From assembly GCA_003194525.1 (NCBI GenBank), contig NBIV01000092.1:185779-249778 (forward strand): a DNA stretch of 64,000 bases. Direction: 5' to 3'. A program made the translations under genes and the position numbers. Source of the DNA: Gracilariopsis chorda. Lineage: Eukaryota > Rhodophyta > Florideophyceae > Gracilariales > Gracilariaceae. The notes under the pieces were generated by a model. That model made no database searches. It saw only the letters and a program-made list of their open reading frames with translations, and had not been told where the DNA came from. Shown here one piece after another: positions 199 through 64,000 of this stretch (the stretch's first letter is position 1; every line of letters begins with the position of its first letter).

Positions 199-2373
199 TT
201 AGTTTTCCGCCTTCGGCGGTGGGTTGGTTTCCTCGACAACGAGTGCTTCATCCCGTTGACGGGGGTTTCTATCCGCATAAGCGGGGGTTGCAACGGATGG
301 TTGCGTGATCTCCCGAATCGGGGTGTATGAAGCTTGCCGCGCACGCGGGGTCTGTGGTAGGGCATGGGAAAAGTCCGTTTTAGCACGGAGGTAGGAAGCC
401 GTCGGGACGGAACGTTTCTCCTCTGGAGTGAGGGCCTCATAATTTGCCACCACCTTGGCCATATCCTTCAGTGAACAAATACACTGAGGTGAGGTATGGC
501 CATGGGCATAGCACAGGTGGCAAATGAGAGCCAATACCACGACACGCGGATTATTATTCCGAGTATCGGAGAAGCGAACCGCAGGGCGGGTGTCAGTCCA
601 TCCAGGCCGTTGATAAAGGGATTGACCGTTTGAAAACGGGAGTCGTTGGGGTTGAACCCGACGGTTACCACTGTACAAAACGGGGTCTTCCGTTCCCGTA
701 TCACGGGTCATCTGCGTCGTTGACGGCAAATCACTGGTGGGTATCGACACACCATCCCCCTGCACTAAATGCACGGTATCAAATCCCTGTCCAGGGTTCC
801 CATCCGCGGTGAGCGGGAGAGAGGAAGCTTCGCTTTCCAGCAACAATGCCTGGGCCGATTTAGACCGATTGTTCGGAGTTCTTGCACGAAGTGCATCCCC
901 TTCCGCTCGAGCGTGTTGGACCAGCTCGAGGTAGGTGATCCTCCGCTTGTCCTCCCGATAACGGGTAACTAAACTCCGGATTGCCGGGTCAAGACCATCG
1001 ATGAACATGATACTGCGCTCCCCAGCGGGGTATACGTTACCACATCTGTGGAAAGCCTTGTTAAGGCGCACCGAGTAATTGGTCTCGGTCTCTCCAGCAC
1101 GCTGGCGTGTATCTCGCAAAGCGAGGATAGCCTGCTGAATAGCGGTGTTGGTGGCGTAGGAGCGCAGTAGATACTGCACAGCCTCCGGCCAGCAAGTAAC
1201 TCCTCCCTCGGAGCCGCGAGAAGATCCTCTGACAGAGGTGTATTGGTCCTCCGCCACTCCCCGTAAGAAATACGGTAAAGCCAAATAGGCTTGTCCCTCA
1301 TTCATACCGAGGATATCGGCCTCCGCTACAAAGCGGGATAGGAAATCCAGTACTAGGACTGGGTCTTCTCCAGTAAAATACTGGTTGCGGAGCGAGAGCT
1401 GCATTCGCTTAATGCATTCTCGCACCTTTCCCGTACCACGGGGCGTACGTCCAAGTGACGAATCTTCGAGCCGGTAGTACCGGTATGATAAAAGCTTCCG
1501 GTAATCCGGGTTTGTCGGTTTCAATTCCCGGAGACCGGGGTGTCTTCTCCCCTTCTGGCGGGTTCGGACCACACCTTCAGTGGCCGATGACCGCTTCCAG
1601 CGGGAGGAGTAGCCTCGCTTCTCGTCCTCCGAGTCGGAGTCCGAGGAGCTCGAGCTAACCGAATGGTTTCGGGATGAGTCCGATGATGTCGAAGAATCGG
1701 AGTCCGAATATTTTCGGTGGTGTTTCCGTCGATGACGGCGTTTCTTCTTCCCAGCAAGCTGGTCGTTGTGCGATGCCTCGTTTACCGGATCACCCGGGGA
1801 TGGTTTGTCCATGAGTACGAACTGCTCTAGCGTCTCCAGGCGGGGACCAATCCGATCAAATCGGGCTTCAACTCCTTCGATGAAGGTGGCGGGTTGTCCC
1901 AAACTCTCCAACACGGAGTTGACGTCAGACCGTAAAATACGGAGTTCCTCGGTGACCTCCTTTACGGGGGTTGCCGAGACCACCTCTTGGAGGGATTTTA
2001 GTTCCCCTACAAGGGTGTCATGGGCGGTCCACAGAGCGTGGACCTGGGATTCCAGGGAAGTCCCCTGGGGGGTGTTATCGCCCGTTCCACGGGGGCTTGA
2101 AGCCGCGACAGCGGGAGCAGGCCGGGGTGCCTGGGGCACTGCGGCAACAGCCGGAGTCGATGCTGTATTCCCCTGCGGGGGTGATAACGAGGGCAAAAGG
2201 AGGTTCCGGGGTTTCCGGTCGGGGGTATCATTCCGCGATGAAGCGGCGCCAGCACGGCTGGAACTTGTCCGTATAGGGATACGGGGTACGAAACGAACTT
2301 CGGAAGTGTCCACGTTGTCGCGGGAGCGACTACGCGTAACCACTGGCTCCGCGTCGGAGGGATTTCTCGACAT
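199..2373 (-). CDS. gag: Gag polyprotein of E0, intact
   Basis: A 724-residue open frame without breaks. It would form the virus-like particle and bind the element RNA. The N-terminal ~240 residues are Ser/Pro/Arg-rich, with a short basic run (KKKRRHRRKHHRK, about residues 210-225) followed by an Asp/Ser-rich acidic stretch. The middle carries the helical retrotransposon capsid region (around residues 320-470). Near the C-terminus is a perfect CCHC zinc knuckle, CHLCYAHGHTSPQC (C-x2-C-x4-H-x4-C), for nucleic-acid binding. The start at 2373 lies about 80 nt past the primer site and is conserved as MSRxPSxAEPV in the diverged E3. It is the only unbroken gag in the window: the E2 copy is frameshifted and the E3 copy decayed. 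Confidence 0.9.
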   Translation of the reverse strand: MSRNPSDAEPVVTRSRSRDNVDTSEVRFVPRIPIRTSSSRAGAASSRNDTPDRKPRNLLLPSLSPPQGNTASTPAVAAVPQAPRPAPAVAASSPRGTGDNTPQGTSLESQVHALWTAHDTLVGELKSLQEVVSATPVKEVTEELRILRSDVNSVLESLGQPATFIEGVEARFDRIGPRLETLEQFVLMDKPSPGDPVNEASHNDQLAGKKKRRHRRKHHRKYSDSDSSTSSDSSRNHSVSSSSSDSDSEDEKRGYSSRWKRSSATEGVVRTRQKGRRHPGLRELKPTNPDYRKLLSYRYYRLEDSSLGRTPRGTGKVRECIKRMQLSLRNQYFTGEDPVLVLDFLSRFVAEADILGMNEGQAYLALPYFLRGVAEDQYTSVRGSSRGSEGGVTCWPEAVQYLLRSYATNTAIQQAILALRDTRQRAGETETNYSVRLNKAFHRCGNVYPAGERSIMFIDGLDPAIRSLVTRYREDKRRITYLELVQHARAEGDALRARTPNNRSKSAQALLLESEASSLPLTADGNPGQGFDTVHLVQGDGVSIPTSDLPSTTQMTRDTGTEDPVLYSGNRRVQPQRLPFSNGQSLYQRPGWTDTRPAVRFSDTRNNNPRVVVLALICHLCYAHGHTSPQCICSLKDMAKVVANYEALTPEEKRSVPTASYLRAKTDFSHALPQTPRARQASYTPIREITQPSVATPAYADRNPRQRDEALVVEETNPPPKAEN

Positions 2374-2478: not shown

Positions 2479-3282
2479 TGTGGTGCAATGCCCCAAAGGG
2501 GAAAAACACCGAAAGACCTTCGGGATCTTCCTCTCACGAGGTGAACCCAGTTGGGTAGAGCCCTCCCAGAGATGTCACGGCGAAGCCGGTTTGTAAGACC
2601 AGGGACACATGTCGCGACTCGCGCAGGGGGGTGAAGGCGAAGAATCGGTATCCGCGTGAGCGGGGTGTGATCCTCAGTAGAGGTATGTTTCCACGTGAGT
2701 GGGGGTGTGTGAGCGGATGCGCACACGAGGGCCGCGGATAGCGGGAGGTGCTACCCTAAAAAGGAGAAAAAGAAGGGCGAAGTGAGTCGCGAGAGCGACG
2801 GGGACGAACGGCGATGCCGGTAACAATATCCCTATACAGGGCGAAACACCAATGCAATTGGAACAATTATACTCCCAGTGATGGGTCCCTTTAGATGTGC
2901 AAGGGGGTTAGATGTCCCGTGGTTTACGGCGTTTCCCTCCAAGGAGGAGTAGAGTACGCGCGCAAGCGACAACAACTAGAGCCAATTCCCCAGGTTGGGG
3001 TCACTTGTTGGGGAAGGTTTACTGGTGCGACGGCAGTGCGCCGTCGCACTAAGTACTAGCTTCCCAGAAATGGGTGTGAAAATAATAAATAATATTAACT
3101 AAAATACTCCACATTTCGTGGCAACATCCACTACTGTGGCCAACCGCCAATCGACCCAAAACAGTGTCCCACGTGCCCATATCCACCATAGTGGGGCGTA
3201 GTTCATATACACAGTACACAACCGATAATATCGGGAAAGCGTTCAAGTACCCAGAATCCCTGACTGAGGGCGTTGCACTTCA
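2479..3282 (-). repeat. 5' LTR of E0 (804 bp)
   Basis: On the minus strand it begins TGAAGTGCAACGCCC at 3282 and ends GGGGCATTGCACCACA at 2479, so it has TG...CA ends inside imperfect inverted termini. It aligns along its whole length with 8968-9794 and 53,782-54,606. It contains a 10-bp perfect hairpin at 3025-3049 and an AT-rich block (about 3075-3105) that could hold the promoter. The half nearest gag is packed with small hairpins such as CCGC-gtga-GCGG and CCAC-gtga-GTGG. Confidence 0.9.
3025..3049. repeat. 10-bp perfect hairpin in the LTR
   Basis: GTGCGACGGC, a 5-nt loop, then GCCGTCGCAC. The same hairpin is present at 9201-9225 and 54,349-54,373. In the diverged E3 LTR remnant (about 16,872-16,896) the stem is partly decayed. 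It lies just downstream of the AT-rich block, so it could fall near the transcription start or in the R region of the RNA. Confidence 0.8.
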
Positions 3283-7123: not shown

Positions 7124-8911
7124 TCACTCACCCCCATCGTCCGGGTCGTAACCCCCAGCAAGGCGGTAGGCCAACGCGTCCGCCATGGTGGTGACATCCC
7201 CCGATACCTCAGCAGCGCTAAGACCGGCACCCCGGAGGAAACGTGCAATGATTTCGTTTTCATTCGCCGTCACCCCGCTGGGGATAGAAAGTCCGGCACT
7301 TGCCGCTGAAGGGTCAGCAACCGGCTCGGCCGGAGACACCCCCTCTGGGAAAGCTTCCGCGCTAGCGCCGGTCTCCTCTACGTCCATCTCCCCGGGTTCT
7401 TCCGGTTCGTTATCGACCATTGGGTCATCCCCGCCGTATGCGCGGTAGTAGTAGTCAGAATCGACGTACCCCACCGGGTGGTTTTCCGGCACATGCCGGG
7501 GCGTATCGCCAAGCTCGCGCGCCTCCTCGGAGGAAATTTCCCGGAACTCCCAGGGGTCGAAGTAGATAAAATCCCCCGCAAGGGCGGTGTTTCTACCGAG
7601 TACCGGACCACCGGTGTTACCACTGCCGCCATCCAGACGACCGCTTTGCTCCAGCGGGACCTCACTCCAGCTAACGCTGTCGATGTACCCAAGTAATTGG
7701 AGGACCTCTTCATTGTTGGCCTGGCCCTCAAGGGGGATGCGAAGATCCAGGTTTCGGATCGCTGCCCGCACAAGCGGTTGAAGGAACCAGAGACGATACT
7801 GGTCGTACGTCTCGTTGAGGATATAAGCCGCAGTGCGGGCCGCCTACTCCGTAACCACTACGGACCACAACCCCGACCGGGGATCCTGCATGAGCAGCGA
7901 ACCGAGGTACGTAAGTACCGGCGGGAGTTCTATGTAGCACCCCCGGCAGGCTTCATGGAAGCGCTATCACTCGGGGAGTGCTACATACCGACCTAGTCGG
8001 TGAGGCGGCGCAATCCGCTCTATCTCCACGTTCTGATACGGGATAAAATACCCGAATCGGGATCGCCAACGCCGCTCGTAGCGGATGAAGTTTTGGAGAA
8101 AGTTGGACCGGTATTGCCGGGGAAGGTACCTGAACTCCGCCCGAATAGTCGGTCGCTCCCAACAAAGAGCTTCTTGCCGCGCTGCGGGGAAATTCCTCCA
8201 AGCGAGGGTCTCGAGGCGGAACAGGTTCTCGCCGTACCCAATCTCCCCGCGAGTGCGGAAGTAGCTAACGTCGAAGCCAAACTCCGGTGGGACCGGTACA
8301 TCGAATGGAGCCCGGCTCTGCCGTTGGTATGCCATGCGCGTCAACGCGGTGTGCGCCGCAGCGACGGTCTCGCCCGAATTTCTTCGGAGGTGGTGACGCG
8401 GAATTGCAATCCGGTGACGCCAATCCCACGATGTGCTGACTGCTCTGGGCAGATCCCCCGGAAGGGTGTCTGAGCCATCCACATAAGCGGTGACCAATCC
8501 CTCATTGACGACAGCGACCGGGTGGAACCACCGGGCAAGGCGCACGCGCGACGCGTGATTCCGAGTCATCGGGTTGAGCCCCACCAGGGTGTTGTAGGTT
8601 GGCCAGTGGGACACCAGAGTGGTTCCGGAGGACACCACCGAAGGTGGGAGTGCGAAGGGATGGTCGGCTGCAGCAGCCATATTCCCCGGTTGTACCGGAT
8701 GTCGATCGCCCTTAGGCAGGGGAACTGACCGGAAACCGGCGGTGTATCGCCCGAGAAGCCTCGGAGGTTGGCTGTGGTTGTTGATGTTGTTGTCGTCGTT
8801 CATTTCTCCCTTGTCGAGGGTGGCTGTTGTTGTCGTTTGTGCGCTTGGTGACTCTGATGCAGAGGGATTTACCGGAGAACCGGAGACGGAGCATGCGCTT
8901 TTATCACCCAT
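7124..8911 (-). pseudogene. Antisense gene of E1 (595 codons, three Trp-to-stop changes)
   Basis: Unrecognised protein encoded opposite to gag-pol between the chromodomain and the 3' LTR. It matches the intact E2 gene (54,664-56,448) along its full length with no frameshift; one codon is extra (Gly in FRTRGEIGYG). Three stops interrupt it: TGA (7969-7967) and TAG (7966-7964), which replace two adjacent Trp codons, and TAG (7846-7844), also a Trp codon in E2. All are TGG-to-TGA/TAG transitions. The start at 8911 is 56 nt from the LTR. No indels in about 1.8 kb, while gag/pol copies are full of them, suggests it was maintained until recently. Confidence 0.85.
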
Positions 8912-8967: not shown

Positions 8968-9156
8968 TGAAGTGCAACGCCCTCAGGGAGGGATTCTTGG
9001 TACTTGATCCTTTTCCCGATATTATCGGTTGTGTAGTATGTATATGAACTACGCCCCACTATGGTGGATGTGGACACGTGGGACACGGTTTTGGGTCGAT
9101 TGGCGGTTGGCCACAGTAGTGGATGTTGCCACGAAATGTGGAGTATTTTAGTTAAT

Positions 9157-9166
9157 ATTATATATT
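9157..9166. promoter_or_regulatory. Possible TATA region of the LTR promoter
   Basis: ATTATATATT inside an otherwise GC-rich LTR, about 190 bp from its 5' end and about 35 bp before the conserved 10-bp hairpin. It is AT-rich on both strands, so it could serve the gag-pol transcript and, read the other way, the antisense gene about 250 bp away. Inference from position and composition only. Confidence 0.3.
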
Positions 9167-9546
9167 ATTTTCACACCCATTTCTGGGAAGCTAGTACTTA
9201 GTGCGACGGCGCACTGCCGTCGCACCAGTAAACCTTCCCCAACAAGGGACCCCAACCTGGGGAATTGGCTCTAGTTGTTGCCGCTTGCGCGCGTACTCTA
9301 CTCCTCCTTGGAGGGAAACGCCGTAAACCACGGGACATCTAACCCCCTTGCACATCTAAAGAAGCCCATCCTTGGGAGTATAATTGTTCCAATCATATTG
9401 GTGTTTCACCCTGTACAGGGAGTCCTGTCCACCGGCATTGCCGTATCTGTTCGTCGCTCTCGGGACCCACTTCGTCCTTCCTTCCTCCTCTTCGCCCTTC
9501 CTTTTTCCCCTTTTTAGGGTAGCACCTCCTGCTATCCGCGGCCCTG

Positions 9547-9794
9547 GTGTGCGCATCCGCTCACACACCCCCACTTACGTGGAAACACACCTCTACTGAG
9601 GAGCACACCCCGCTCACGCGGATACCGATTGTTCGCCTTCACCTCCCTGCGCGAGTCGCGACAGGTGTCCCTGGTCTTACCAACCGGCTTCGCCGTGACA
9701 CCTCCGGGAGGGCTCTACCCAACTGGGTTCACCTCGTGAGAGGAAGATCCCGAACGTCTTTCGGTGTTTTTCCCCTTTGGGGCATTGCACCACA
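9547..9794 (+). other. Short open frame inside the LTR (candidate uORF)
   Basis: A frame starting MCASAHTPP is open in the sense direction through the last ~250 bp of the LTR in all three young copies (here, 2726 to 2460 and 54,029 to 53,745), each ending just past the LTR. In E0 it stops close to the primer site, ahead of gag. If transcription starts in the middle of the LTR it would be a leader uORF. The copies are recent, so conservation alone is weak evidence for coding. Confidence 0.25.
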
Positions 9795-11318
9795 TCTATG
9801 CAGCATTTGCAGTTCATAGTGAACAGAACAAATTTTCGGTTAGAAAGCAAAGACGTTCGGAGGACTTCAGGGGGAGATTTGTTCAAATTCTTTGGAATTC
9901 TTATCCTCATGACTCGCATTGAGTTCTCTAACAGACGGGATCTTTGGATCCTCGAGCCTTTTTCTAAGTTTAATCCTCAGCCAAATATTGGTCTTGCGAT
10001 GTCACGGAACAGATTTGAAATGCTTAGAAGTTCAATATGCTTCAGCAGAAATGGTGTGACTGAAGAGCAGGGAATCGCGCGTTGGTCCTTCGTAACAGAT
10101 TTCGTGAAGGCAATCAATGACCATCGTCGGTCTTTTGTTACGCCATCACATGCCTTATGTGTTGACGAAGGAATGTCACGATGGTACGGATTAGGCGGTA
10201 ATTGGATTGATGTCGGGCTTCCGCACTATACGGCATTAGACAGAAAGCCGGAAAATGGTCTTGAAATGAAGGCCGTATGTTGTGCACGAAGTGGCATAAT
10301 GCTGAACATTGAGCTCAATATGGGTGCAAATATTCCGGAACAAGTTTTTGATTCTGATAACGACCATGGAACGGCAGTCTTACTTCGCTTAGTGCAACCA
10401 TGGTTTGGATCAGAAAGGTTGGTATGTGCGGATTCCTTTTTTGCGTCTGTCAGTACAGCGAAAGCATTACTGGAAAAAGGTTTAAGGTTTACTGGAGTTG
10501 TCAAAAATGCTACTCGTGAATATCCCATGACACATCTCTCCGAAACTACTTTATCAGACAGGAGAGATTTTGTATCTATGCTATCGAAAGGAAGCATTAT
10601 CAATAATGATATAATGGCTGTAATGTGGATGGACAGAGAAAGAAGGTATTTCGTATCAACCTCTGGCACGGTTAATCCTGGCTGTCCTATTATTCGAGAA
10701 AGGTGAAGACGGGAGGGAAATATTTCTAAGAAAGTGGAAATGGAGGTCGCAATTCCCGAAGTGTGTGAAGAGTATTACAAAAACTGTTCAATGGTTGATC
10801 ACCATAACAGATGCAGACAAGATGATCTGAATCTGGAGAAGAAAATTGAAGTGAAAGAGTGGTCATTTCGAGTGAACTGCTCTCTTTTATCGATTTGTAT
10901 TGTGGACGCCTGGAAGTTGTACAAAGCCGCAAATGGAACCCGAAACGTGAAAAAACCGCACCACTTCTACTTCCAATTGGCTGATGAACTAATTGAAAAT
11001 ACATGGGATACCACAGGTCTAATGAGGAGAGATGAGCAAGAATGTGAAAATGATCATGAGAAGCCAATGTTTGCAGGCACTGGCTTGCATTTAATGCAGA
11101 CGAATAGAAGGAGAAAGAACAAGGATGGTAAGATTACAAAAGCTTTATATCAAGGACGATGCAGTTTCTGGAAAGGTAATACAAACTCCAAGTTTTTATG
11201 TTCTGGCTGCTTTATCAGAAAGGAAAAAGAAGTGTTTTTATGTCACACTGGTACTAATAGAGATTGTTTTATGAAACACATTGAAGAGTGTCACGGTATA
11301 ATGAAGTTCAGAAGCTGA
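9795..11318 (+). pseudogene. piggyBac-type DDE transposase, 5' truncated, one in-frame TGA
   Basis: Cut-and-paste transposase of the piggyBac family, truncated at its N-terminus by the E1 LTR. The frame carries the expected order of motifs: the domain start (FIVNRTN), first catalytic Asp in CVDEGMSRWYG, second in CADSFFAS, third in SMVDHHNRC, then a C-terminal Cys/His-rich zinc region (RCSFWKG ... CSGCF ... LCHTG ... C-x3-H). One in-frame TGA (10,704-10,706) falls between the second and third Asp; the same frame then continues to 11,318 with no other break. No terminal inverted repeat or TTAA flank could be assigned. Base composition is AT-richer than the neighbouring gypsy element. Confidence 0.85.
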
Positions 11319-17135: not shown

Positions 17136-18279
17136 AGCTGTTTGACGATGTTCCTTACCATTTGTGGTACAAACCAAAGACTTTATTTGTCGTACGATTT
17201 TCAGAGAAGAAAACCGCTACGCAGGTAACCCACTCTGCGGCAACAAGCGACCAATAACCTGATTTCAGATCACCAATGATTTGGGAACTTATATAAGATA
17301 AACAGGGGGGAGGTTCCAGGAAACTCCCCTTGGGTACCTCAACCTGACGCCGCCATGCTGGTAATGCTGCGAAATGACCACTGGACGTTTGCGGGAGATA
17401 CTGTTCGGTTTCGATATTGGTGTAGGGAATCAAATACCCATGTCTATAACGCGCCTTGCGCTCAAACTGAATCTTCTCGGAGAACGCCGCTTGCATTTCA
17501 GAACGTCGGAGGAACCGAAACTCTGCAGGGATGATGGGCCTCGCTGAACAGACCCTACTGGACTCGATGGTTACTTGCTTTGCGGTTTCAAAGTGTGCCG
17601 TATCGAAATGCGCCAAGTTATCCCCATAAGATACTTCGCCATAGGTGCTATACCTCGAAACGTCGAATTTATATTCAGTGGGAATCAAATGTTGAATTGG
17701 AGTACGCATGAGCCATTTATACGCAAGTCTCTTCAATTCTTCTGGGGCCCTATCCAGGTTCTCTCCACAGCGGAGGTCTATCCCTAGAAGGTTAGGATAC
17801 AAAGCAATGCGCCCCTGCCAATGACCTGAAGTGAACACGTCAAGTATAAGCCCGCCAGGGAGAATGCCGTCGTGTGTGTACTCCTGGGTCACTGGCAGAT
17901 TGAAAACCTTGGAAGGGTGAAACCAAGGAGCGCGGGCATAGATCGAAGGACTCAGTAACGCATCCCGTGCTTCCAGGTATACCATGTGGACCAACCCATG
18001 TTGGTTTTTGACAACCGGAGTACCCTGAGAAGAGCACTACGCACGGATGTATACCGGAACAGTTATCGGAGCGCTACCTTCAGGAAATGGAACCATAGGA
18101 ACCCGGCTCAGTCTGGAGGATGAAGGAGCTATACTACCAAAATGGGAGGTACCCGCTGCGGGGTTGTGTTGGTTCAGATTCTCTGAGTTCATTAACGGAG
18201 ATGAAGAATTGGTCTTGATGTTGTTATTTTTCGTTCGTCGCGTTATGTGTTCAACCGGAAGAAAGTCGGCATCACTCAT
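17136..18279 (-). pseudogene. Antisense gene of E4, truncated, diverged homologue
   Basis: Minus-strand frame beginning MSDADFLPVEH at 18,279, 81 nt from the E4 LTR, and cut at its C-terminal third by the E3 LTR (17,130). It is homologous to the E2 antisense protein at roughly one third identity by eye over about 240 residues. Shared blocks are APWFHP, LPGxL, FDVSxxxT, YGxNL, RPIIxAEFRxLxR, ERxxRxRxGYxIPYxNxExE, ALPxWxR and SGxWSxVxxEW. One in-frame TAG (18,039-18,037) interrupts an otherwise single frame. This conservation between diverged elements is the best evidence that the antisense frame is a real gene. Confidence 0.8.
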
Positions 18280-18350: not shown

Positions 18351-19200
18351 AGGAGGGGGATGTGTAGAGAAATGCGTGCACGCATACCATCTAGGCAACG
18401 TGGATCATGTATGATTCAATACCGACATGGGATCGGTTCAACTCAGTTATGAGTGGACCCTCGGAAATATTTAGTGAAACTCGATTTGAATTAATTGGTA
18501 TTTTTGAAACTTTTGTGGGTGATTTCTGTGGTACCTGGAACAGATAAACGTGTGGCAAGCACAAGGATATTGTTTAAGGTTGCCATGATTCACACGTGCC
18601 GTATTATGACGTAGTCAGCAGTGCCGCCAAGTGAAAAAAGATTGTGAACCACAAGTGTGGCACACTACAGTACTAGTATTCTTAGACTATTGTGACCCAA
18701 TAGTACTTAAAGAAGGACGGCCTTGACGTTTCACCCTGATGTAAAGCAAGCTGTATCTCGGCTTTGAGTTTATCGCCTGCGTGGAGTGAAGAACTCGTGC
18801 TGGGGTGCCACCACGTTCGATCTCGCTATACTCACTTGCACAATATCATCAGGAACCGCTGATCTATCTCACCTCGTGGCTTCCCTCCGTTTTCACTGTT
18901 TTTACCGTTCTGGTTACTTTCTATTGTGAGAACAGATAGCCATTCGACTCATTATTAAGTTTTGCCGTCCTGGCGGAACAAGTAACACCCCCACCGCCAG
19001 CTCTCTTTCGGCTTTCCGCACGACCTTCCTGGATGTGCATTTCCTTTTCGTTACTCCTCTCTTTTCTCTTTTTACTTTCTGGATTCTCCGTGCACCGGAA
19101 CAGCGCTCACACGGACCTGTGCACTACGTTGACCAGCTGGTAGCCCAATTATCGGTATCACCTCTGTTGGTATTGTCGGAAGCCACCTCCGTTGCACACT
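18351..19200 (+). repeat. Polypurine tract and diverged LTR of E4 (end approximate)
   Basis: AGGAGGGGGA (18,351-18,360) is followed by TGTGTAGAG, placed relative to the antisense gene just like the LTR start of E1. GTTTCACCCTG (about 18,738) and the pyrimidine-rich block around 19,050-19,080 recur in the same order as in the 8968-9794 LTR. The 3' end is put near TTGCACAC at about 19,200, giving a length close to the 827 bp of the E1 LTR. The boundary is uncertain. Confidence 0.5.
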
Positions 19201-53748: not shown

Positions 53749-53781
53749 TTGAGGATTAAATGATGAGCTATATTGCAGAGG

Positions 53782-54606
53782 TGTGGTGCAATGCCCCAAA
53801 GGGGAAAAACACCGAAAGACGTTCGGGATCTTCCTCTCACAAGGTGAACCAAGTTGGGTAGAGCCCTCCCAGAGGTGTCACGGCGGAGCCGGTTTGTAAG
53901 ACCAGGGACACCTGTCGCGACTCGCGCAGGGAGGTGAAGGCGAAGAATCGGTATCCGCGTGAGCGGGGTGTGGTCCTCACTAGAGGTATGTTTCCACGTA
54001 AGTGGGGGTGTGTGAGCGGATGCGCACACGAGGGCCGCGGATATCGGGAGGTGCTACCCTAAAAAGGGGAAAAAGGAAGGGCGAAGAGGAGAAAAAGAGG
54101 GCGAAGTGAGTCGCGAGAGCGACGGGGACGAACGTCGATGCCGGTAACAATATCCCTATACAGGGCGAAACACCAATGCAATTGGAACAATTATACTCCC
54201 AGTGATGGGTCCCTTTAGATGTGCAAGGGGGTTAGATGTCCCGTGGTTTACGGCGTTTCCCTCCAAGGAGGAGTAGAGTACGCGCGCAAGCGGCAACAAC
54301 TAGAGCCAATTCCCCAGGTTGGGGTCCCTTGTTGGGGAAGGTTTACTGGTGCGACGGCAGTGCGCCGTCGCACTAAGTACTAGCTTACCAGAAATGGGTG
54401 TGAAAATAATAAATAATATTAACTAAAATAGTCCACATTTCGTGGCAACATGCACTACTGTGGCCAACCGCCAATTGACCCAAAACCGTGTCCCACGTGT
54501 CCATATCCACCATAGTGGGGCGTAGTTCATATACACACTACACAACCGATAATATCGGGAAAGCGTTCAAGTACCTAGAATCCCTCCCTGAGGGCGTTGC
54601 ACTTCA
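53782..54606 (-). repeat. 3' LTR of E2 (825 bp)
   Basis: Minus-strand start TGAAGTGCAACGCCC at 54,606 and end GGGGCATTGCACCACA at 53,782. Matches 2479-3282 and 8968-9794. Several differences from the E0 LTR fall in hairpin loops (for example CGGC-gaa/gga-GCCG, CCTC-agta/acta-GAGG, CCAC-gtga/gtaa-GTGG). The conserved 10-bp hairpin is at 54,349-54,373. Confidence 0.9.
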
Positions 54607-54625
54607 TATTCCCCCCGCTAAGACG
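54607..54625 (-). promoter_or_regulatory. Polypurine tract of E2
   Basis: On the minus strand GCGGGGGGAATA directly precedes the LTR start TGAAG at 54,606, as in E1. Confidence 0.7.
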
Positions 54626-54663: not shown

Positions 54664-56448
54664 ATGGGTGATAGAAGTGCGTACGCTGTCTCCGGTTCTC
54701 CGGTAAATCCCTCTGCATCAGAGTCATCGAGCGCACAAACAACAACAACAGCCACCCTCCAAAAGGGAAAAATGAACGACGACAACAACATCAACAACCA
54801 CAGCCAACCTCCGAGGCTTCTCGGGCGAAACACCACCGGTTTCCGGTCAGTTCCCCTGCCTCAGTGCGATCGAAATCCGGTACAACCGGGGAATATGGCT
54901 GCTGCAGCCGACCATCCCTTCGCACTACCACCTTCGGTGGTGTTCTCCGGAACCACTCCGGTGTCCAACTGGCCAACCTACAACACCCTGGTGGGGCTCA
55001 ACCCGATGAATCGGAATCACGCGTCGCGCCTGCGCCTTGCCCCGTGGTTTCACCCGGTCGCTGTCCTCAATGAGGGATTGGTCACCGCTTATGCGGATGG
55101 CTCAGACACCCTTCCGGGGGATCTGCCCAGAGCAGTCACCACATCGTGGGATTGGCGTCACCGGATTGCGATTCCGCGTCACCACCTCCGAAGAAATTCG
55201 GGCGAGACCGTCGCTGCGGCGCACACCGCGTTGACGCGCATGGCGTATCAACGGCAGAGCCGGGCTCCATTCGATGTACCGGTCCCACCGGAGTTTGGCT
55301 TCGACGTTAGCTACTTCCGCACTCGGGAGATTGGGTACGGCGAGAACCTGTTCCGCCTCGAGACCCTCGCTTGGAGGAATTTCCCCGCAGCGCGGCAAGA
55401 AGCCCTTTGCTGGGAGCGACCGATTATTCGGGCGGAGTTCAGGTACCTTCCCCGGCAATACCGGTCCAACTTTCTCCAAAACTTCATCCGCTACGAGCGG
55501 CGTTGGCGATCCCGATACGGGTATTTTATCCCGTATCAGAACGTGGAGATAGAGCGGATTGCGCCGCCTCACCGACTAGGTCGGTATGTAGCACTCCCCG
55601 AGTGGTGGCGCTTCCATGAAGCCTGCCGGGGGTGCTACATAGAACTCCCGCCGTTACTTACGTACCTCGGTTCGCTGCTCATGCAGGATCCCCGGTCGGG
55701 GTTGTGGTCCGTAGTGGTTACGGAGTGGGCGGCCCGCAGTGCGGCTTATATCCTCAACGAGGCGTATGACCAGTATCCTCTCTGGTTCCTTCAACCGCGT
55801 GTGCGGGCAGCGATCCGAAACCTGGATCTTCGCATCCCCCTTGGGGTCCAGGCCAACAATGAAGAGGTCCTCCAATTACTTGGGTACATCGACAGCGTTA
55901 GCTGGAGTGAGGTCCCGCTGGAGCAAAGCGGTCGTCTGGATGGCGGCAGCGGTAACACCACTGGTCCGAGACTCGGTAGAAACACCGCCGTAGCGGGGGA
56001 TTTTATCTACTTCGACCCCTGGGAGTTTCGGGAAATTTCCTCCGAGGAGGCGCGCGAGCTTCGCGATACGCCCCGGCATGTGCCGGAAGACCACCCGGTG
56101 GGGTACGTCGATTCTGACGACTACTACCGCGCATACGGCGGGGATGACCCAATGGTCGATAACGAACCGGAAGAACCCGGGGAGATGGACGTAGAGGAGA
56201 CTGGCGCTAGCACGGAGGCTTTCCCAGAGGGGGTGTCTTCGGCCGAGCCGGCTGCTGAGCCTTCGGCGGCAAGTGCCGGACTTTCTATCCCCAGCGGGGT
56301 GACGGCGAATGAAAACGAAATCATCGCACGTTTCCTCCGGGGTGCCGGTCTTAGCGCTGCCGAGGTATCGGGGGATGTCATCACCATGGCGGACGCATTG
56401 GCCTACCGCCTTGCTGGGGGTTACGCCCTGGACGATGGGGGTGAGTGA
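54664..56448 (+). CDS. Antisense gene of the E2 retrotransposon, intact 594-residue protein of unknown function
   Basis: Opposite strand to gag-pol, starting 58 nt past the LTR (AAAATGGG, good start context) and ending 190 bp before the pol stop. No family recognised. Residues 1-50 are Ser/Thr/Asn/Gln-rich. A central region (about 120-360) has conserved blocks APWFHP (126), FDVS, YGENL, RPIIRAEFRYLPR (252), GYFIPYQNVEIE (286) and SGLWSVVVTEW (345), many Trp/Tyr/Arg. The tail (about 430-594) is acidic and Pro/Ala/Ser-rich. No signal peptide, membrane segment or catalytic motif is evident. The E1 copy has only Trp-to-stop changes, and E4 has a diverged homologue. AATAAA follows at 87 nt. Likely transcribed from the LTR in antisense. 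A regulatory, nucleic-acid-binding or particle role is guesswork. Confidence 0.85.
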   Translation: MGDRSAYAVSGSPVNPSASESSSAQTTTTATLQKGKMNDDNNINNHSQPPRLLGRNTTGFRSVPLPQCDRNPVQPGNMAAAADHPFALPPSVVFSGTTPVSNWPTYNTLVGLNPMNRNHASRLRLAPWFHPVAVLNEGLVTAYADGSDTLPGDLPRAVTTSWDWRHRIAIPRHHLRRNSGETVAAAHTALTRMAYQRQSRAPFDVPVPPEFGFDVSYFRTREIGYGENLFRLETLAWRNFPAARQEALCWERPIIRAEFRYLPRQYRSNFLQNFIRYERRWRSRYGYFIPYQNVEIERIAPPHRLGRYVALPEWWRFHEACRGCYIELPPLLTYLGSLLMQDPRSGLWSVVVTEWAARSAAYILNEAYDQYPLWFLQPRVRAAIRNLDLRIPLGVQANNEEVLQLLGYIDSVSWSEVPLEQSGRLDGGSGNTTGPRLGRNTAVAGDFIYFDPWEFREISSEEARELRDTPRHVPEDHPVGYVDSDDYYRAYGGDDPMVDNEPEEPGEMDVEETGASTEAFPEGVSSAEPAAEPSAASAGLSIPSGVTANENEIIARFLRGAGLSAAEVSGDVITMADALAYRLAGGYALDDGGE

Positions 56449-56535: not shown

Positions 56536-56541
56536 AATAAA
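56536..56541 (+). promoter_or_regulatory. Polyadenylation signal AATAAA of the antisense gene (E2)
   Basis: Canonical AATAAA 87 nt after the antisense stop, in the convergent spacer before the chromodomain stop; same spacing as in E1. Confidence 0.65.
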
Positions 56542-56639: not shown

Positions 56640-59600
56640 TTACCCAACTTGGGCATTAACCAGCGTGGCTGGGGCTGCAGTTCCCGTTTGACGGTGGTAT
56701 CGCAGGACTTGCGACCGTGGGAGGTGTTCAATTGGCTCCCACGTATCCCCACTGGGGTCGTACCCGTACCAGCGGACGCAGTATTGTAGAATACCATCCT
56801 GGTCCCAGGTGTGTCCGAAAAGTCGGTCTACTACGAACTCTCGTTCGTAGACCTGCCGGCCGTGCCGGGTGGTGGTTGTACTTCCTTGCGGGGGCTGCCC
56901 GCTGTGCGGTATAATGTCCCTTAGCAGGGTGTTCGGCGATAACTCCGGCGTTGCCGTGCGCTGTGATAGCGGCCGCTGCTCATGCGGGAAGATATCCCTC
57001 AAGAGGGTGTGTGGTGCCACGGTTTTCACCGGCAAGTCATTCCCCATTGGGGTAGGTTCATTTCCGCTTTCGCGGTATTGCGGGCGAACCGCCAGTCGGC
57101 GGGGGACTTGGGCTCCGCCTTCGCGGTTGAGCTCACGAACCGCGAGTTAGCCTGAAGATGACCGCTCCTGCGGGATCGGCATTTCCACAATCCCCTGGGG
57201 GGTCCCGTGCGACACGGTGATTGGGTGGGAAACCGCCTTCCTGCCAGGCGCACGAGCGCTCTGCACCATACGTTCCGGCGATGCCGTGGTGTCCCCGGCT
57301 ACTGACGGGTTGCCTGGGGCTAACTCCGGTACACCGGTATTTTGGTCAAAATTCCCCTTTGGGGGGTACCGGGCAGGTGCCGATGACACCCTTTTCAGGG
57401 GAATTGCCGCTAAGCGCGGTGCACCATCTCCATGAGGAGAAGCAGCGTCCGGTACGACCGGTTTCGAGCGTGCGATGGCGCGCGTTTTTCCCGAGTTCCT
57501 CGGTTCTTCGCCGCAGCGATGCGGGGGTTGGCGCAAATTATTCCCCGTAGCGGGGGCTTCGATTCCGTCAACTATGGGAGGCGTTTCCGGTGCTTGCGAG
57601 CAAGGGCTTAAAGCTTCAACTGCGGCTTGGCTGCCTTTTTCCCCAAGAGGGGTATGGGTATTTCCCTGTGAGGCCGGCGTATCTGGGCGCCCCTTCTCCG
57701 CAAGGCGCGGGTCTGATCGACCTGATTGAACCGCTTCCGCGGGGACTTCCGCCAACGGCGGCTTCGAGGCATCGGGCGATTGCCTTTCCGCTGCTGCGGT
57801 ATTGGAGTGAGGCTTCTCGTTTTCCCGTGACAAACGGTGTATTTGCCGCTTTTGCGGGGCCTGCGCGTCTGGTTCCTGTTGCACAGCACTGCCCGGGAAC
57901 GGGGGATTAGTGTCGCGTGACATACTCCGTGCTCCACGGTCAGTGTTCCGTATGTTACGGTGTGTCTCCCCTTGCGACGGTGATATCGTTCCTCGAAAAC
58001 GAGTGTTCTCCTCCCCCTCCTTAGACGGAGCGGCGGGATAAGGGATAACATTCCCCGCCTGGCGGGTATAGATGCGCGCCAGTGGGGCAGACGTGGTAGG
58101 GGCGGGCGCTGAGGGGCCCGAATTACCCGGCTGAGCCGGTGAGTCCGACAGAGTCGGTAGGTCTGAGAGTCCCCGGCTGGGGTGTGGTAGTACCGTAGGT
58201 CTAGTACTCCCGGATTGTTCCGGTGTAGTGGAGTCCGTAGAAACGGGGTTGCCTGGATCCAGGACTACCTCTGACGAGGGAGGAGGGGCAAGGACAACAC
58301 GATCACGGGAAATCCGTTCGTGCGTGTCCCCCATCTCTACCACGACAGTGTCGGTGTTAACAGAGATCACCTTGAAGGGTCCATCCGCCACAGGCGAGAG
58401 TTTGTGACGCTTCTCCCGTTCCGGGTTGTAGTACTCCTTCCTGATGAAGACGTAGTTATTTTCCCGAATCGGGGGGGTCTTTTCTCGCAAGCGAGCGTCA
58501 AAATCCCGCTTGTAAGCGGCTTGGGCCCGTGCCATAGACTTCCGCGCAGCGGGGAGCAGCTTGGAAAGCCATTGCTTCCATTGCTGCCGGTAGACACCCA
58601 CAGATGGGAAATTGTTCAAGGTAGCATGGGGTTCCAGCGCCACAGGCGGGGGTGTTCTAGATAGAACCAACTCGAATGGCGAAACTCCGGTAGTCCGGTG
58701 TACCTGCGTATTGTACGCGTAGGTTACCGCATCAGCGTAGAGATCCCAATTCGTTGGGTGGTCAGCGACGTAGGAACGTAACCCCGAGAGTAACGTCCGG
58801 TTAAACCGTTCAACTTGCCCATTACACTGGGGGTGGTAGGTAGTCGTGAACAAGTTCTTGAAATCCAGGATGCGACAAACATCCTGGAAGAACTTGCTCA
58901 CGAACTGCTTCCCGTGGTCAGAGAGCACCTCTACAGGGGGACCGTAGACAAAAATCCAGTGTGTCACTAGAGCCTGGGCCACCGTGAGAGCGGTTATCCT
59001 CCGAAGAGGGACAGTCCGTACCAGCTTAGAAAAGCGGTCGGTAATGACAAGTAGAAACTTGTTTCCACGTTTCGCGGTGAGTAATGGTCCGAGAATATCG
59101 ATCGCGATAAACTCGAGCGGCGCCCTTGCGGGGAATAGTTTCATCTTCTTCGCATTTTTGCGGAGTTTGACGCGATTCTTCGCGCATTCGCTACAAAACC
59201 GCACAGTTGCGTAGCAATCCACCGCCATTGCGGGCCAATAGAAATCCCTTCGCAGGGTTAGGTAGAGTTTCCTCCCACCTGGGTGACCTCCAATGGGGGC
59301 GTAGTGTGATAGATGTAACACCCGCGATTGCAGGGAATGTGGTACCACAATCTGTGGGCGGGCTTCGACCTTTCTTACGAGGTAGCCTTTGTCGTTTACC
59401 CCGAAAGGGAGATCTTCACCACCGTTGGTACGGGCACCAATTCTCGTACAGAATGGGTCGCCGAATTGTTCTCGGATCATTTCTTCCGGTGATACCGGTA
59501 CAAAGTTTCCCGGTAACGGGTTCTCAGATTTATCTCGCGATGCGAGTAGTTCGTCAAAATCAGCATCCTCGTCCCAGGTTGCTGGCCTAGCCTCGACGGC

Positions 59601-59747
59601 ATGTTCTGGATCATCCGGGTCTATAGCCATGAAGCATGGGACTTCATCATCCTCCGTTGGGAGTGCTTCCCCACTTGTGGGTAACCGCGATAAAGCGTCG
59701 GCCTGGGTGTTCTGCGCACCCTTTTTTATAAATGACTTGAAAGTCAT
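56640..59747 (-). pseudogene. pol: E2 pol: integrase, linker and chromodomain
   Basis: One frame from 59,747 to 56,640 with a single TAA at 57,149-57,147, inside the linker. Domains in order: end of RNase H (QADALSRLP), integrase zinc region (HLSHYAPIGGH...CSEC), core with Asp in AIDILGPL, Asp in LSDHGKQF and Glu in QVERFNR, C-terminal barrel (ADGPFKVISV), a Pro/Ala/Ser/Arg-rich linker of about 350 residues, and a chromodomain at 56,690-56,860 (VYEREFVVDR...VRWYGYDPSGDTWEP). All three integrase catalytic residues are intact, unlike E1. Confidence 0.9.
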
Positions 59748-60285
59748 ATTCCGCGAGGCGGATTCTCCAGCGCATGAGGCGTCCCGACGGGTCGGAGATA
59801 TTCATCAACCACCTCAATAAGGAATGATCCGTGTACACGGTGAAGTGAATTCCCATAAGGTAGGGGCGCAGAGTGGTCATCGCCCATACGACGGCGAGGC
59901 ACTCTTTCTCCGATGCGGAGTAGTTCCGCTCATGAACATTGAGCGAACGTGACCAATAACCAATTGGATGTCGTTCCCCCTCGGGGGTGGTTTGAAAAAG
60001 AGCACACCCGACTTGGTAGTCGCTCGAGTCCGTATCTACGGAGTATGGCAACCCAAGTTTTGGGAGATGTAGGATTGGTGCTGATGTGACAGCCTCCTTT
60101 AAGGAGTTAAAAGCTTCTGATTGCTTGGGCGTAAATGTTCCCAGTTTTGGGGGGTTCCCCTTTCGCAACAACGCGTTCAGGGGCGCTGCAGTATCCGAAA
60201 AGTTCGGGATAAAACCGTCGATAGACGTTGACCAGCCCCAGAAAGGAGCGCAGTTCCGTTTGAGTACGGGGTTCTTTCGCCTCAA
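59647..60285 (-). pseudogene. pol: E2 RNase H
   Basis: Frame with FIPNFSDTAAPLN, VDTDSSDYQVG (Asp), SEKECLAVVWAM (Glu) and YTDHSLLRWL (Asp). Frameshifted at both ends relative to RT (near 60,235) and to integrase (near 59,725, where a one-base change converts GAQNTQADAL to another frame). Confidence 0.85.
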
Positions 60286-61277
60286 CGAGGGATTTGACTC
60301 GAGCTTTCTCGATCGCTAACCGTCCAGGACGGATAATGTGACCCAGATACTTCACAGTATCTGTGAAAAAACTCGCATTTCCTCAACTTGAGGGTAATTC
60401 CCGCATCGCGGAGTACGGTCAGCACGTCTCGGACGTGAGTGAGATGGTCCTCCAACGAGTTGGAGAAGATGATAATATCATCAAGGTAGACCAGACAACT
60501 CCGCCACTTAAAGCGGTTGAGTAGAATATCTACTGCACGCTGAAAGGTGGCGGGGGCGTTGGTTAACCCAAATGGCATCCGCTTGAAGCGGTACGTTCCT
60601 GCATGGCAGGTGAATGCGGTTTTGTCGCGATCCTCCTGTCTGACAGGTACTTGCCAATATCCCCAATTGGCATCAAGGGCCGTGAACACGGTGGCGTCTC
60701 CAAGGGAGTCAATACACTCGTCCATACGAGGGATGGGGTACGTGTCCCTAACAGTCACGGCATTGAGCCGGCGGTAGTCGACACAGAACCTCCAGGTTCC
60801 GTCGGCCTTTAAAGCCAGTACAACTGGGGATGCCCAGGGCGATTGAGCGGGCTCAATCACACCTGCGCGGAGCATCTTGTCCACTTGGGACTGCTCCTCT
60901 TCCCGAGCTTTCGGACCTGCCTTGTAAGGGGGTTGTGCAACCGGTCGCGCACCGGGGATTAAATCGATCCGGTGTTCCGTTGCATCAATCTCGCCAAGCG
61001 AGCCATCCCACATTGTGGTGAATTCCCGTAACATAGTACGGAGTTTGTCCCGGTGCGACTCTGGCACGTGGCTGAAGTCCAGCGCTTCAAGTGCTTTTTC
61101 CGGATCAATCCGGTCGTTGCTCGATAGGAGCATTGTCCTGTGGAACAGGTGTGGTTCGCAATTCCGAGTTACTCGGTATGTTCGACGCTGAAGTAGCGGT
61201 TTCCTCCCCCTCCTTAGACTTGACGTCTTCGGACGGCGGGGCGAACTCCTCAGAAGAGGTGGTAACTCCGAGTACAT
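60282..61277 (-). pseudogene. pol: E2 reverse transcriptase
   Basis: Complete fingers and palm: LKADGTWRFCVDYRRLN, TALDANWGYWQVP, FGLTNAPATFQ and catalytic LVYLDDIIIF. Near 60,370 an extra T in a T run (six instead of five in E1) shifts the frame after KCEFF. Such homopolymer changes could also be consensus errors in the assembly. Confidence 0.9.
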
Positions 61278-61333: not shown

Positions 61334-62173
61334 TTACTCGGTGTTTGACCAGATACTGGGGGTGTTTGCCAAGGTTGGCAACCAATATCCGGAAAGGAAC
61401 ACCGGGGAAATGGAGACAATTTCATTAGCCAGCGCCAGCTGGGATTTCTCGTACAACGAGGCGAGGGGTTGTATAACCCGAAGAACGTGTTGACGCGAAT
61501 TTACCTTCACCCAGACTTGGGACTCAGCCGATATAGAAACCGAGGCAGCGAAACGGAGCTTGGTTGACTCGCGGGACGCGGGCGGTGGTTCCTGCGCAGC
61601 AGGGAGCGGAACTTGTTTCCGAGAGGACCGCTTTAGCGGGCGGCGAACAATCGGAACCGACGATCCGTCGTCAAGTTCTACACGCCTGAGGGGGGGCCTG
61701 ATTGCGTCGACAAATCTGTCGCAGTAATCACATCCCAGTATGACTGGTGCTGCCAATGAACGGCAAACGATGAAGTCCAACTTCATCACAGAGGTACCAA
61801 GTCTCACGACGAGGTCCACTGTGCCCACCGTTTGTAACGGATTGTTGTTCGCATCCGAAATGTCGGGGACCGCGTCAGAGCGGATACGCGACCGCACAAG
61901 CGGGGGTAACAATGATTCCACAACAAAGTTGGGGCCTGCACCTGTATCCAGGACGGTGAGAAACCTCACCATAAACTGGGGATCAAGGCCAAGGTCGGCA
62001 TAGACCTTATAATTGCGTTTGGCCAAGACCAAGACTCTACCGGGAATCCGGGGATTTTTACTCCGTATCCAGGGGCGACGCAACACACCGAGGTGCGCAG
62101 AGTCCACGTCAGCGGTGTCTTTCCTCGAGAGGACTTTCACCGGGGAGCGAGGCGAGGAAGCCTCGGGCGCCAA
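61334..62173 (-). CDS. pol: E2 aspartic protease region
   Basis: A 279-codon frame with the retropepsin active site FLTVLDTGAGPNFV (about residues 71-84) and the later hydrophobic-Gly turn PVILGCDYCDRFV. The Arg/Ser/Pro-rich stretch before it is the gag-pol linker. It is in the -1 frame relative to gag. It ends at a frameshift before RT (about 61,330-61,430). The protease itself looks unbroken. Confidence 0.8.
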   Translation of the reverse strand: MAPEASSPRSPVKVLSRKDTADVDSAHLGVLRRPWIRSKNPRIPGRVLVLAKRNYKVYADLGLDPQFMVRFLTVLDTGAGPNFVVESLLPPLVRSRIRSDAVPDISDANNNPLQTVGTVDLVVRLGTSVMKLDFIVCRSLAAPVILGCDYCDRFVDAIRPPLRRVELDDGSSVPIVRRPLKRSSRKQVPLPAAQEPPPASRESTKLRFAASVSISAESQVWVKVNSRQHVLRVIQPLASLYEKSQLALANEIVSISPVFLSGYWLPTLANTPSIWSNTE

Positions 62174-62221
62174 CTGCCTCGTTCTTGAGGGACGCCTCTC
62201 CCAAAGGGAGGACTCCCTCAG

Positions 62222-64000
62222 TTAGTTTTCCACCTTCGGCGGTGGGTTGGTTTCCTCGACAACGAGTGCTTTCATCCCGTTGACGGGGGTTTCTATCCGC
62301 ATAAGCGGGGGTTGCAACGGATGGTTGCGTAATTCTCCCGAATCGGGGTGTATGAAGCTTGCCGCGCACGCGGGGTCTGTGGTAGGGCGTGGGAAAAGTC
62401 CGCTTTTAGCACGGAGGTAGGAAGCCGTCGGGACGGAAAGTTTTCTCCTCTGGAGTGAGGGCCTCATAATTTGCCACCACCTTGGCCATATCCTTCAGTG
62501 AACAAATACACTGAGGAGAGGTATGGCCATGGGCATAGCACAGGTGGCAAATGAGAGCCAGCACCGCGACACGCGGATTATTATTCCGGGTATCGGAGAG
62601 AAGCGAACCGCAGGGCGGGTGTCAGTCCATCCAGGCCGTTGATAACGGGATTGACCGTTTGAAAACGGGAGTCGTTGGGGTTGAACCCGACTGTTACCAC
62701 TGTATAGAACGGGATCTTCTGTTCCCGTATCATGGGTCATCTCCGTCGTTGACGGTAACTCACTGGTGGTATCGACCACACCATCCCCCTGCGCTAAATG
62801 CACGGTATCAAATCCCTGTCCAGGGTTCCCATCCGCAGTGAGCGGAGAGAGGAAGCTTCGCTTTCCAGCAACAACGCCTCGGCGGATTTAGACCGATTGT
62901 TCGGAGTTCTTGCACGAAGTGCATCCCCTTCCGCTCGAGCGTGTTGGACCAGCTCGAGGTAGGTGATCCTCCGCCTATCCTCCCGATAACGGGTAACTAA
63001 ACTCCGGATTGCTGGGTCAAGACCATCGATGAACATGGGTACTGCGCTCCCCCAGCGGGGTATACGTTACCACATCTGTGGAAAGCCTTGTTAAGGCGCA
63101 CCGAGTAATCGGTCTCGGGTCTCTCCAGCACGCTGGCGTGTATCTCGCAAAGCGAGGATAGCCTGCTGAATAGCGGTGTTTGTGGCATAGGAGCGCAGTA
63201 GATACTGCACAGCCTCTGGCCAGCAAGTAACTTCTCCCTCGGAGGCACGAGAAGATCCTCTGACAGAGTTGTATTGGTCCTCCGCCATTCCCCGTAAGAA
63301 ATAAGGTAAAGCCAAATAGGCTTGTCTCTCATTCATACCGAGGATATCAGCCTCCGCTACAAAGCGGGATAGGAAATCCAGTACTAGGACTGGGTCCTCT
63401 CCAGTAAAATACTGGTTGCGGAGCGAGAGCTGCATTCGCTTAATGCATTCTCGCACCTTTCCCGTACCACGGGGCGTACGTCCAAGTGACGAATCTTCAA
63501 GCCGGTAGTACCGGTATGATTAAAAGCTTCCGGTAATCTGGGTTTGTCGGTTTCAATTCCCGGAGACCGGGGTGTCTTCTCCTATTCTGGCGGGTTCGGA
63601 CCACACCTTCAGTGGCCGATGACCGCTTCGAGCGGGAGGAGTAGCCTCGCTTCTCGTCCTCCGAGTCGGAGTCCGAGGAGCTCGAGCTAACCGAATGGGT
63701 TTCGGATGAGTCCGACGATGTCGAAGAATCGGAGTCCGAATATTTTCGGTTGGTGTTTCCGTCGGATGACGGCGTTTCTTCTTCCCAGCAAGCTGGTCGT
63801 TGTGCGATGCCTCGTTTACCGGATCATCCGGGGATGGTTTGTCCATGAGGACGAACTGCTCCAGCGTCTCCAGGCGGGCACCAATCCGATCAAAATCGGG
63901 CTTCAACTCCTTCGATGAAGGTGGCGGGTTGTCCCAAACTCTCCAACACGGAGTTGACGTCAGACCGTAAAATACGGAGTTCCTCGGCGACCTCCTTTAC
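62222..64000 (-). pseudogene. gag: E2 gag, frameshifted and cut by window edge
   Basis: Nearly identical to E0 gag from about residue 133 onward, but split by several indels into frames at 63,906-63,553, 63,456-63,091, 63,332-62,997, 63,036-62,794, 62,803-62,495 and 62,467-62,222. Most indels are one base in G/C, A or T runs. The zinc-knuckle region (about 62,520-62,560) is still present in nucleotide sequence. Confidence 0.85.

Follow-up and report, generated by a model that had tools for sequence, protein, structure and literature searches.

A conserved antisense gene between the chromodomain and the 3′ LTR of a red-algal Ty3/gypsy element

Does a long reading frame that runs against gag-pol in an LTR retrotransposon encode a protein, and what could such a protein do for the element? 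A locus of the red alga Gracilariopsis chorda raises this question. We analyzed the terminal 64,000 nucleotides of contig C92 (the window) and searched the whole 91.3 Mb assembly (1,081 contigs). According to the original prediction, a Ty3/gypsy chromodomain element carries, opposite to gag-pol, a frame of roughly 595 codons that is flanked by the chromodomain and the 3′ LTR and is intact in one element of the window, E2. This description is accurate. The frame starts with an ATG at 54664, its stop codon ends at 56448 (+ strand), and it encodes 594 amino acids (aa).

E2 itself lies on the minus strand. Its gag region (62023–64000) has 96% identity with positions 1–1965 of the window. The pol region carries RNase H and reverse transcriptase (59647–61277; Pfam RT_RNaseH and RVT_1, in different frames in this copy) and the zinc-binding and core domains of integrase (57147–59747; Integrase_H2C2 and rve), so that reverse transcriptase, RNase H and integrase stand in the Ty3/gypsy order according to Pfam. 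A chromodomain is found at the C-terminus of pol (approximately 56712–56837; PF00385, 39.1 bits with a cut-off of 25.1, E 7e-10). The 3′ LTR occupies 53774–54606; its edges were read from the sequence, with TG...CA on the element strand and ATAT outside. A polypurine tract, recognized by eye, is at 54607–54620 (both features on the minus strand). The 5′ LTR is absent because the contig stops at the window end. Pol and the antisense frame are convergent and do not overlap. In a gag frame elsewhere in the window (199–2373, minus strand, 724 aa), a CCHC zinc knuckle can be seen by eye, with no significant Pfam match.

The pol of E2 has one in-frame stop ahead of the chromodomain, at the end of the integrase frame. 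A related copy on contig C28 has no stop at that place; its pol contains a single in-frame stop elsewhere. A conserved readthrough stop ahead of the chromodomain was therefore rejected, because the stops of the two copies differ in position. The LTRs of the C28 copy are 808 bp long and 99.75% identical to each other, and its antisense frame spans 609 codons from stop to stop.

The antisense frame is present in many copies. A 30-mer from it has 310 sites in the genome at up to three mismatches, and the reversed control has none. When the protein of the window was used as the query, 57 of 74 scored places had no stop in the matched part (these 74 being the best-scoring part of 1,885 first-look candidates). 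We refer to the subfamily of the window's protein as A. Selection was assessed on 61 A copies, namely the window and 60 copies from the top of the protein-score list. The frame is fully open in 47 of them, including the window, and one of the 47 lacks the ATG.

We binned the base variants of the 61 copies by the number of copies carrying each variant. The variants confined to one copy comprise 329 nonsynonymous (N) and 153 synonymous (S) changes (omega 0.83), with 15 stops where 15.9 are expected. They are near-neutral and represent decay after insertion. For variants shared by two, three or four copies, the counts are N 60 and S 44 and omega is 0.53, with 3 stops against 3.4 expected. For those carried by at least five copies (N 24, S 36), omega falls to 0.26 and there are no stops against 2.0 expected; the 60 copies were picked by their protein similarity to the window, which can lower N in this shared class too, and the near-neutrality of the singleton variants suggests that this bias is small. 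A deficit of N this large in the shared class has a binomial probability of 2e-7, and the class differs from the singletons with a Fisher p of 4e-5. The adjoining LTR, read as pseudo-codons, served as a control and gave omega values of 1.04, 1.12 and 1.13 over the three classes. The corresponding values for the pol tail (60 copies) are 1.10, 0.86 and 0.57, and the antisense omega in the shared class is below that of the pol tail (Fisher p 0.04). Third positions of the antisense frame are the most variable, with 37 of the 60 shared alleles.

Could these observations be explained by a frame that is open by chance, or by conservation imposed by a sense frame or by an RNA structure of the opposite strand? 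The candidate for such a constraint is the sense frame that shares wobble positions with the antisense frame. Its omega for shared alleles is 0.36, and its aa identity between subfamily A and a second subfamily, B, is 34%, with 38% for the antisense frame. However, in A, B and a third subfamily, C, this sense frame is interrupted by 19 to 27 stops (20 in E2). Every frame except the antisense one has at least 8 stops in A, B and C, and the five remaining frames over the antisense stretch of E2 hold 8 to 22. Additionally, it is the third positions of the antisense frame that vary most, and pol ends before this frame. Constraint from an overlapping protein is refuted, as stops interrupt every sense frame of the region, and we regard chance, overlap and RNA structure together as extremely improbable. 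The claim that this is a real antisense gene is thus borne out by the number of open copies, by the coding-type substitution pattern and by the stops in the other frames. We conclude with high confidence that the antisense frame is a real gene that is under purifying selection while the element replicates.

Two further elements of the window had been said to keep the gene. In E1, which lies on the plus strand, it was expected to be broken by point stops only, and this is what we found. The antisense gene of E1 (7124–8911, minus strand) aligns end to end with the E2 protein at 92% identity (8911–7127), with its frame interrupted by stops at codons 315, 316 and 356. The 3′ LTR of E1 is at 8968–9802 (+ strand). 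At the other side of this element, a minus-strand LTR (2479–3282) adjoins the truncated E1 exactly at 3283.

For E4, also on the plus strand, the gene had been described as a diverged homologue with about one third aa identity and no frameshift. The homology stands: the E4 remnant (17136–18279, minus strand) has 37.6% identity with the E2 protein over query residues 126–374 (249 residues). The absence of a frameshift does not. There is a small frame jump near 17206–17218 that recurs with several queries, there are two in-frame stops, and the C-terminal part is missing. The gene is therefore both truncated and decayed; it stops at approximately 17130, next to an oppositely oriented piece of LTR. 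Its scores against subfamilies B and C are higher than its score against A. The element's own 3′ LTR probably begins at 18361, where the sequence resembles an LTR start and is preceded by a polypurine-like stretch (18352); this is the expected side of the antisense gene.

Of the nine places read among those scored with the relative P0005 (see below), eight (L071–L076, L078 and L079) make up subfamily B, being 98.5–100% identical to L071, and one (L077), with 62% identity to B, represents subfamily C. The antisense genes of B and C give a dN/dS of 0.17 at 64% identity, so that the ratio is well below 1 in this comparison as well as in the shared changes within A. Between A and B, pN is 0.44 and pS 0.73, with dS near saturation and a nominal ratio of 0.26; between A and C, synonymous sites are saturated. 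The aa identity between A and B is 42% for the antisense protein (aligned core), 33–37% for gag and 64–66% for pol. In its speed of divergence the antisense gene is close to gag, and it therefore behaves as one of the element's own genes. The order of gag, pol, reverse frame and 3′ LTR side is common to the C28 copy (A) and a copy on contig C69 (B), where the 3′ LTR edge alone was read.

Further subfamilies, approximately 38–64% alike, also carry the frame. Database searches, in each of three of which 8,000 candidates were scored, returned 15 relatives of the antisense protein. The named ones comprise two from G. chorda, one from Gracilaria domingensis and one from Agarophyton chilense. Homologues, which the original prediction expected in other copies, are thus abundant within the genome, across copies as well as subfamilies, and are found in further Gracilariaceae. 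We also used relatives as queries against the genome. P0005 gave 62 stop-free matched parts among 75 scored places (the best-scoring part of a longer candidate list; nine of the 75 were read). P0003 revealed a further group of six places at 93–100% identity, four of which are stop-free in the listed main part, and P0011 matched more distant places, the best of them at 48%. P0011 and P0012 have an extra charged C-terminal tail that is absent from the window's protein.

Two G. chorda gene models named hypothetical protein belong to the antisense family. One of them, BWQ96_03215 (P0003), is encoded at C30:292265-293737, where residues 1–491 match at 100% and residues 492–617 are not among the matches listed; the other is BWQ96_10156 (P0009). 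Such models, together with the fact that no relation of the antisense protein to gag or pol was found, would suit a captured passenger gene of host or viral origin whose benefit, e.g., antiviral, is unrelated to retrotransposition. This is quite unlikely, as the gene occupies one and the same place of the element in the copies with flanks read, namely E1, E2, the C28 copy and the B copy.

What kind of protein is encoded? We aligned 16 members, namely the window's protein (P0001), L071 and 14 of the 15 relatives (P0006 was left out). An N-terminus in which S, T, P and G are abundant is followed by a conserved core at approximately residues 140–470, by an acidic stretch (481–540) and by a conserved end segment. 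The blocks of the core are located around R-P-I-L-R-A-E-F-R-Y-L, in the V-P-Y-Q-N region, and at E-V-P-R-G-C and E-W-A-A-R-V-A-A, and the core contains conserved Arg and Trp. A Pfam scan of the 16 members gave nothing above chance, a PHROGs search with four members gave chance-level matches only, and profile searches against PDB sequences reached E 0.8 or worse only. Among viral contigs there were six pattern matches and no relatives of the antisense protein. Gag and the antisense protein share no BLAST similarity, and a profile comparison with two gag sequences gave a probability of 0.1%. A relation to gag or pol was rejected, as none was found. The protein had not been recognized as a member of any family when the frame was predicted, and these searches agree with that: it is apparently a new protein family in a red-algal chromovirus.

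A structural role, either as a second coat protein or nucleoprotein of the particle or as a reversed envelope-like protein, would fit the length of about 600 aa, the conserved core and the gag-like evolutionary rate. However, the protein has no similarity to gag by either method. A transmembrane-like stretch is usually called at a hydropathy of 1.6 or above. The 19-residue maximum was 0.91–1.45 in nine of the ten antisense proteins scanned, i.e., these nine have no such stretch, and 1.86 in P0011. Moreover, env-like genes of plant elements are described as being in sense orientation (PMC7264820), whereas the red-algal frame is antisense and nine of ten of its proteins have low hydropathy maxima. 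We consider a structural role unlikely.

The closest known counterparts are in plants. The group of plant Ty3/gypsy antisense frames called aORF-3R (Grande gene23, RIRE2, Retand ORF4, PvRetro13) is described as lying between pol and the 3′ LTR (PMC7264820; PMC11963269), and their function is given as unknown in the former source. The original prediction had named Grande and RIRE2 as analogues, and the place in the element is indeed the same; what is alike is a long reverse frame from pol to the 3′ LTR, which is kept in most copies of the plant elements and may be so in the red-algal family. For Grande, a nuclear location of the protein and antisense transcription are also described (PMC7264820). 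The Retand lineage is presented as a non-chromovirus one whose antisense ORFs have TRP28 (PF04195) (PMC11963269). In contrast, the red-algal element has a chromodomain, and PF04195 had no matches at E≤1 across the whole genome and none in the 16 family members. Thus no kinship to plant TRP28 proteins was found by comparing this profile with the sequences. The red-algal gene resembles the plant antisense frames in position and conservation; it differs in host group, in the lineage of the element and, to judge by the profiles, in protein family.

Boty of Botrytis cinerea is also described as having such an ORF, in antisense between its pol and 3′ LTR (PMC7264820). This is likewise an LTR element outside plants; it is fungal, and the likeness concerns position. 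HBZ of HTLV-1 is a reverse gene expressed from the 3′ LTR (PMC10186651, PMC3185765). The red-algal gene is reverse as well, and to judge by its position it may be expressed from the 3′ LTR; HBZ, unlike it, is a bZIP protein, and the red-algal antisense protein has no bZIP match in Pfam. Chromoviruses as such are reported to have representatives in red algae (PMC3605345). The element described here shares with them reverse transcriptase, RNase H, integrase, chromodomain and LTRs, and differs in its antisense gene, which the opening of that abstract does not name. The word “antisense” is absent from the main text of PMC6317226. Judging by the titles and the beginnings of the abstracts, no antisense gene in red-algal LTR elements was found among the literature matches listed, a set that lay mostly outside the subscription literature.

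The surroundings of the frame bear on its expression. The LTR edge and the antisense ATG are 57, 48 and 81 nt apart in A, the B copy and E4, respectively; in the latter two, the edge was read from a polypurine-like stretch. With so short a gap, an antisense promoter would have to sit largely in the 3′ LTR. None of the 61 A copies has a TATA hexamer in the 260 nt that precede the ATG. A CACGTG box (54494–54499 in the window) is located approximately 170 nt upstream of the ATG in 58 of the 61 A copies. The B copy and E4 have it at other distances, 246 and 319 nt upstream, respectively; the box could serve either strand. On the other side, the hexamer AATAAA is found at 56536–56541 (+ strand), 87 nt past the antisense stop. 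Of the 61 A copies, 59 have it no more than 300 nt past the stop, 58 of them at nearly one distance; in copies that differ by about 2.5%, such conservation is weak evidence. It is also seen by eye after the stop in the C copy and is absent in the B copy.

Taking these data together, we propose that the antisense frame is an accessory gene of the red-algal chromovirus lineage that is driven by the LTR and encodes a nuclear trans-acting protein, and we assign to this explanation as a whole a probability of about one half. Transcription would start at a promoter inside the 3′ LTR, run inward and end at the AATAAA past the frame. The protein may act in trans on the nuclear phase of the element, i.e., on LTR transcription, on the fate of the RNA, or on the pre-integration complex or chromatin. 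The nuclear role is put forward tentatively, by analogy with what has been proposed for the plant Grande/Retand antisense proteins and described for retroviral HBZ; the lack of a transmembrane-like stretch in nine of ten proteins and the conserved Arg and Trp of the core speak for it. Among the points against this explanation are that a role on nucleic acids has no domain match to support it, that no TATA hexamer precedes the ATG and that the B copy has no AATAAA. Another comes from a lineage of elements that has lost the core of the gene.

In this lineage (D), exemplified by L080 (C68:56800-62300), a deletion of approximately 1.25 kb fuses the antisense residues up to about 150 with the last 25 or so, in frame. 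The joint is a short shared G-rich word. The junction was found at at least 27 places, with 13 further listed places matching the A side only; a search with the junction pattern gave 19 sites. Seven D copies were read. The frame runs uninterrupted from ATG to stop in L082 and L086, and in L083 it is open beyond a frame change near the start. The others are damaged: an internal stop interrupts L081, the frame changes within L084 and L085, and the ATG of L080 is gone. On contig C68, four integrase sites on one strand are 9320–9352 bp apart (55373–83382), in a row to which L080 belongs, and three D junction places stand in a row approximately 9.3 kb apart, which suggests a tandem array of D elements. 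Three integrase sites with a spacing of approximately 9.9 kb are also found at C70:249484-269314.

Lineage D is reflected in the site counts. An integrase 30-mer has 478 sites in the genome versus 310 for the antisense 30-mer, and this gap is partly due to the deleted lineage. Among 100 exact integrase sites listed, at least 30 are followed within 6 kb by an exact match of the antisense 30-mer, and for 16 of these the distance is 3938–3943 bp. Conversely, 31 of 61 antisense sites have no exact integrase site, counting exact matches among those listed.

Since lineage D exists without the core of the gene, the full antisense gene is not needed in cis. Three possibilities follow: the gene acts in trans, the element can do without it, or losing it is an escape. 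The last possibility corresponds to a self-limiting factor, i.e., an antisense protein that curbs retrotransposition of its own family and thereby controls copy number, with D having escaped by deletion of the core. The in-frame joining of the two ends with loss of the core, the at least 27 junction places and the row of three on C68 speak for it. Yet D looks far rarer than A (at least 27 places versus 310 sites), and a pure self-inhibitor should be lost often, whereas the gene is kept in several subfamilies. We therefore regard self-limitation as improbable. The accessory trans-acting gene that we prefer must itself accommodate a lineage that dispenses with the full gene in cis. A more specific version of it, in which red-algal chromoviruses evolved a 3′ LTR-driven antisense gene independently of Retand and HTLV, encoding a trans-acting regulator of a new fold, is rather doubtful.

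PMC7264820 reports antisense genes in this position from flowering plants and a fungus, with no known role. The red-algal family comprises hundreds of copies, many of them open and at least one very young, as well as several subfamilies and a lineage without the core. Such diversity of copies opens the role of antisense genes to direct comparative and expression tests, and one genome provides a natural comparison, with intact subfamilies beside a core-deleted lineage. At least one “hypothetical protein” annotated in G. chorda is a member of this transposon gene family, and other such proteins of Gracilariaceae probably are as well. If the more specific version holds, antisense regulator genes would be a recurrent, convergent invention of LTR elements.
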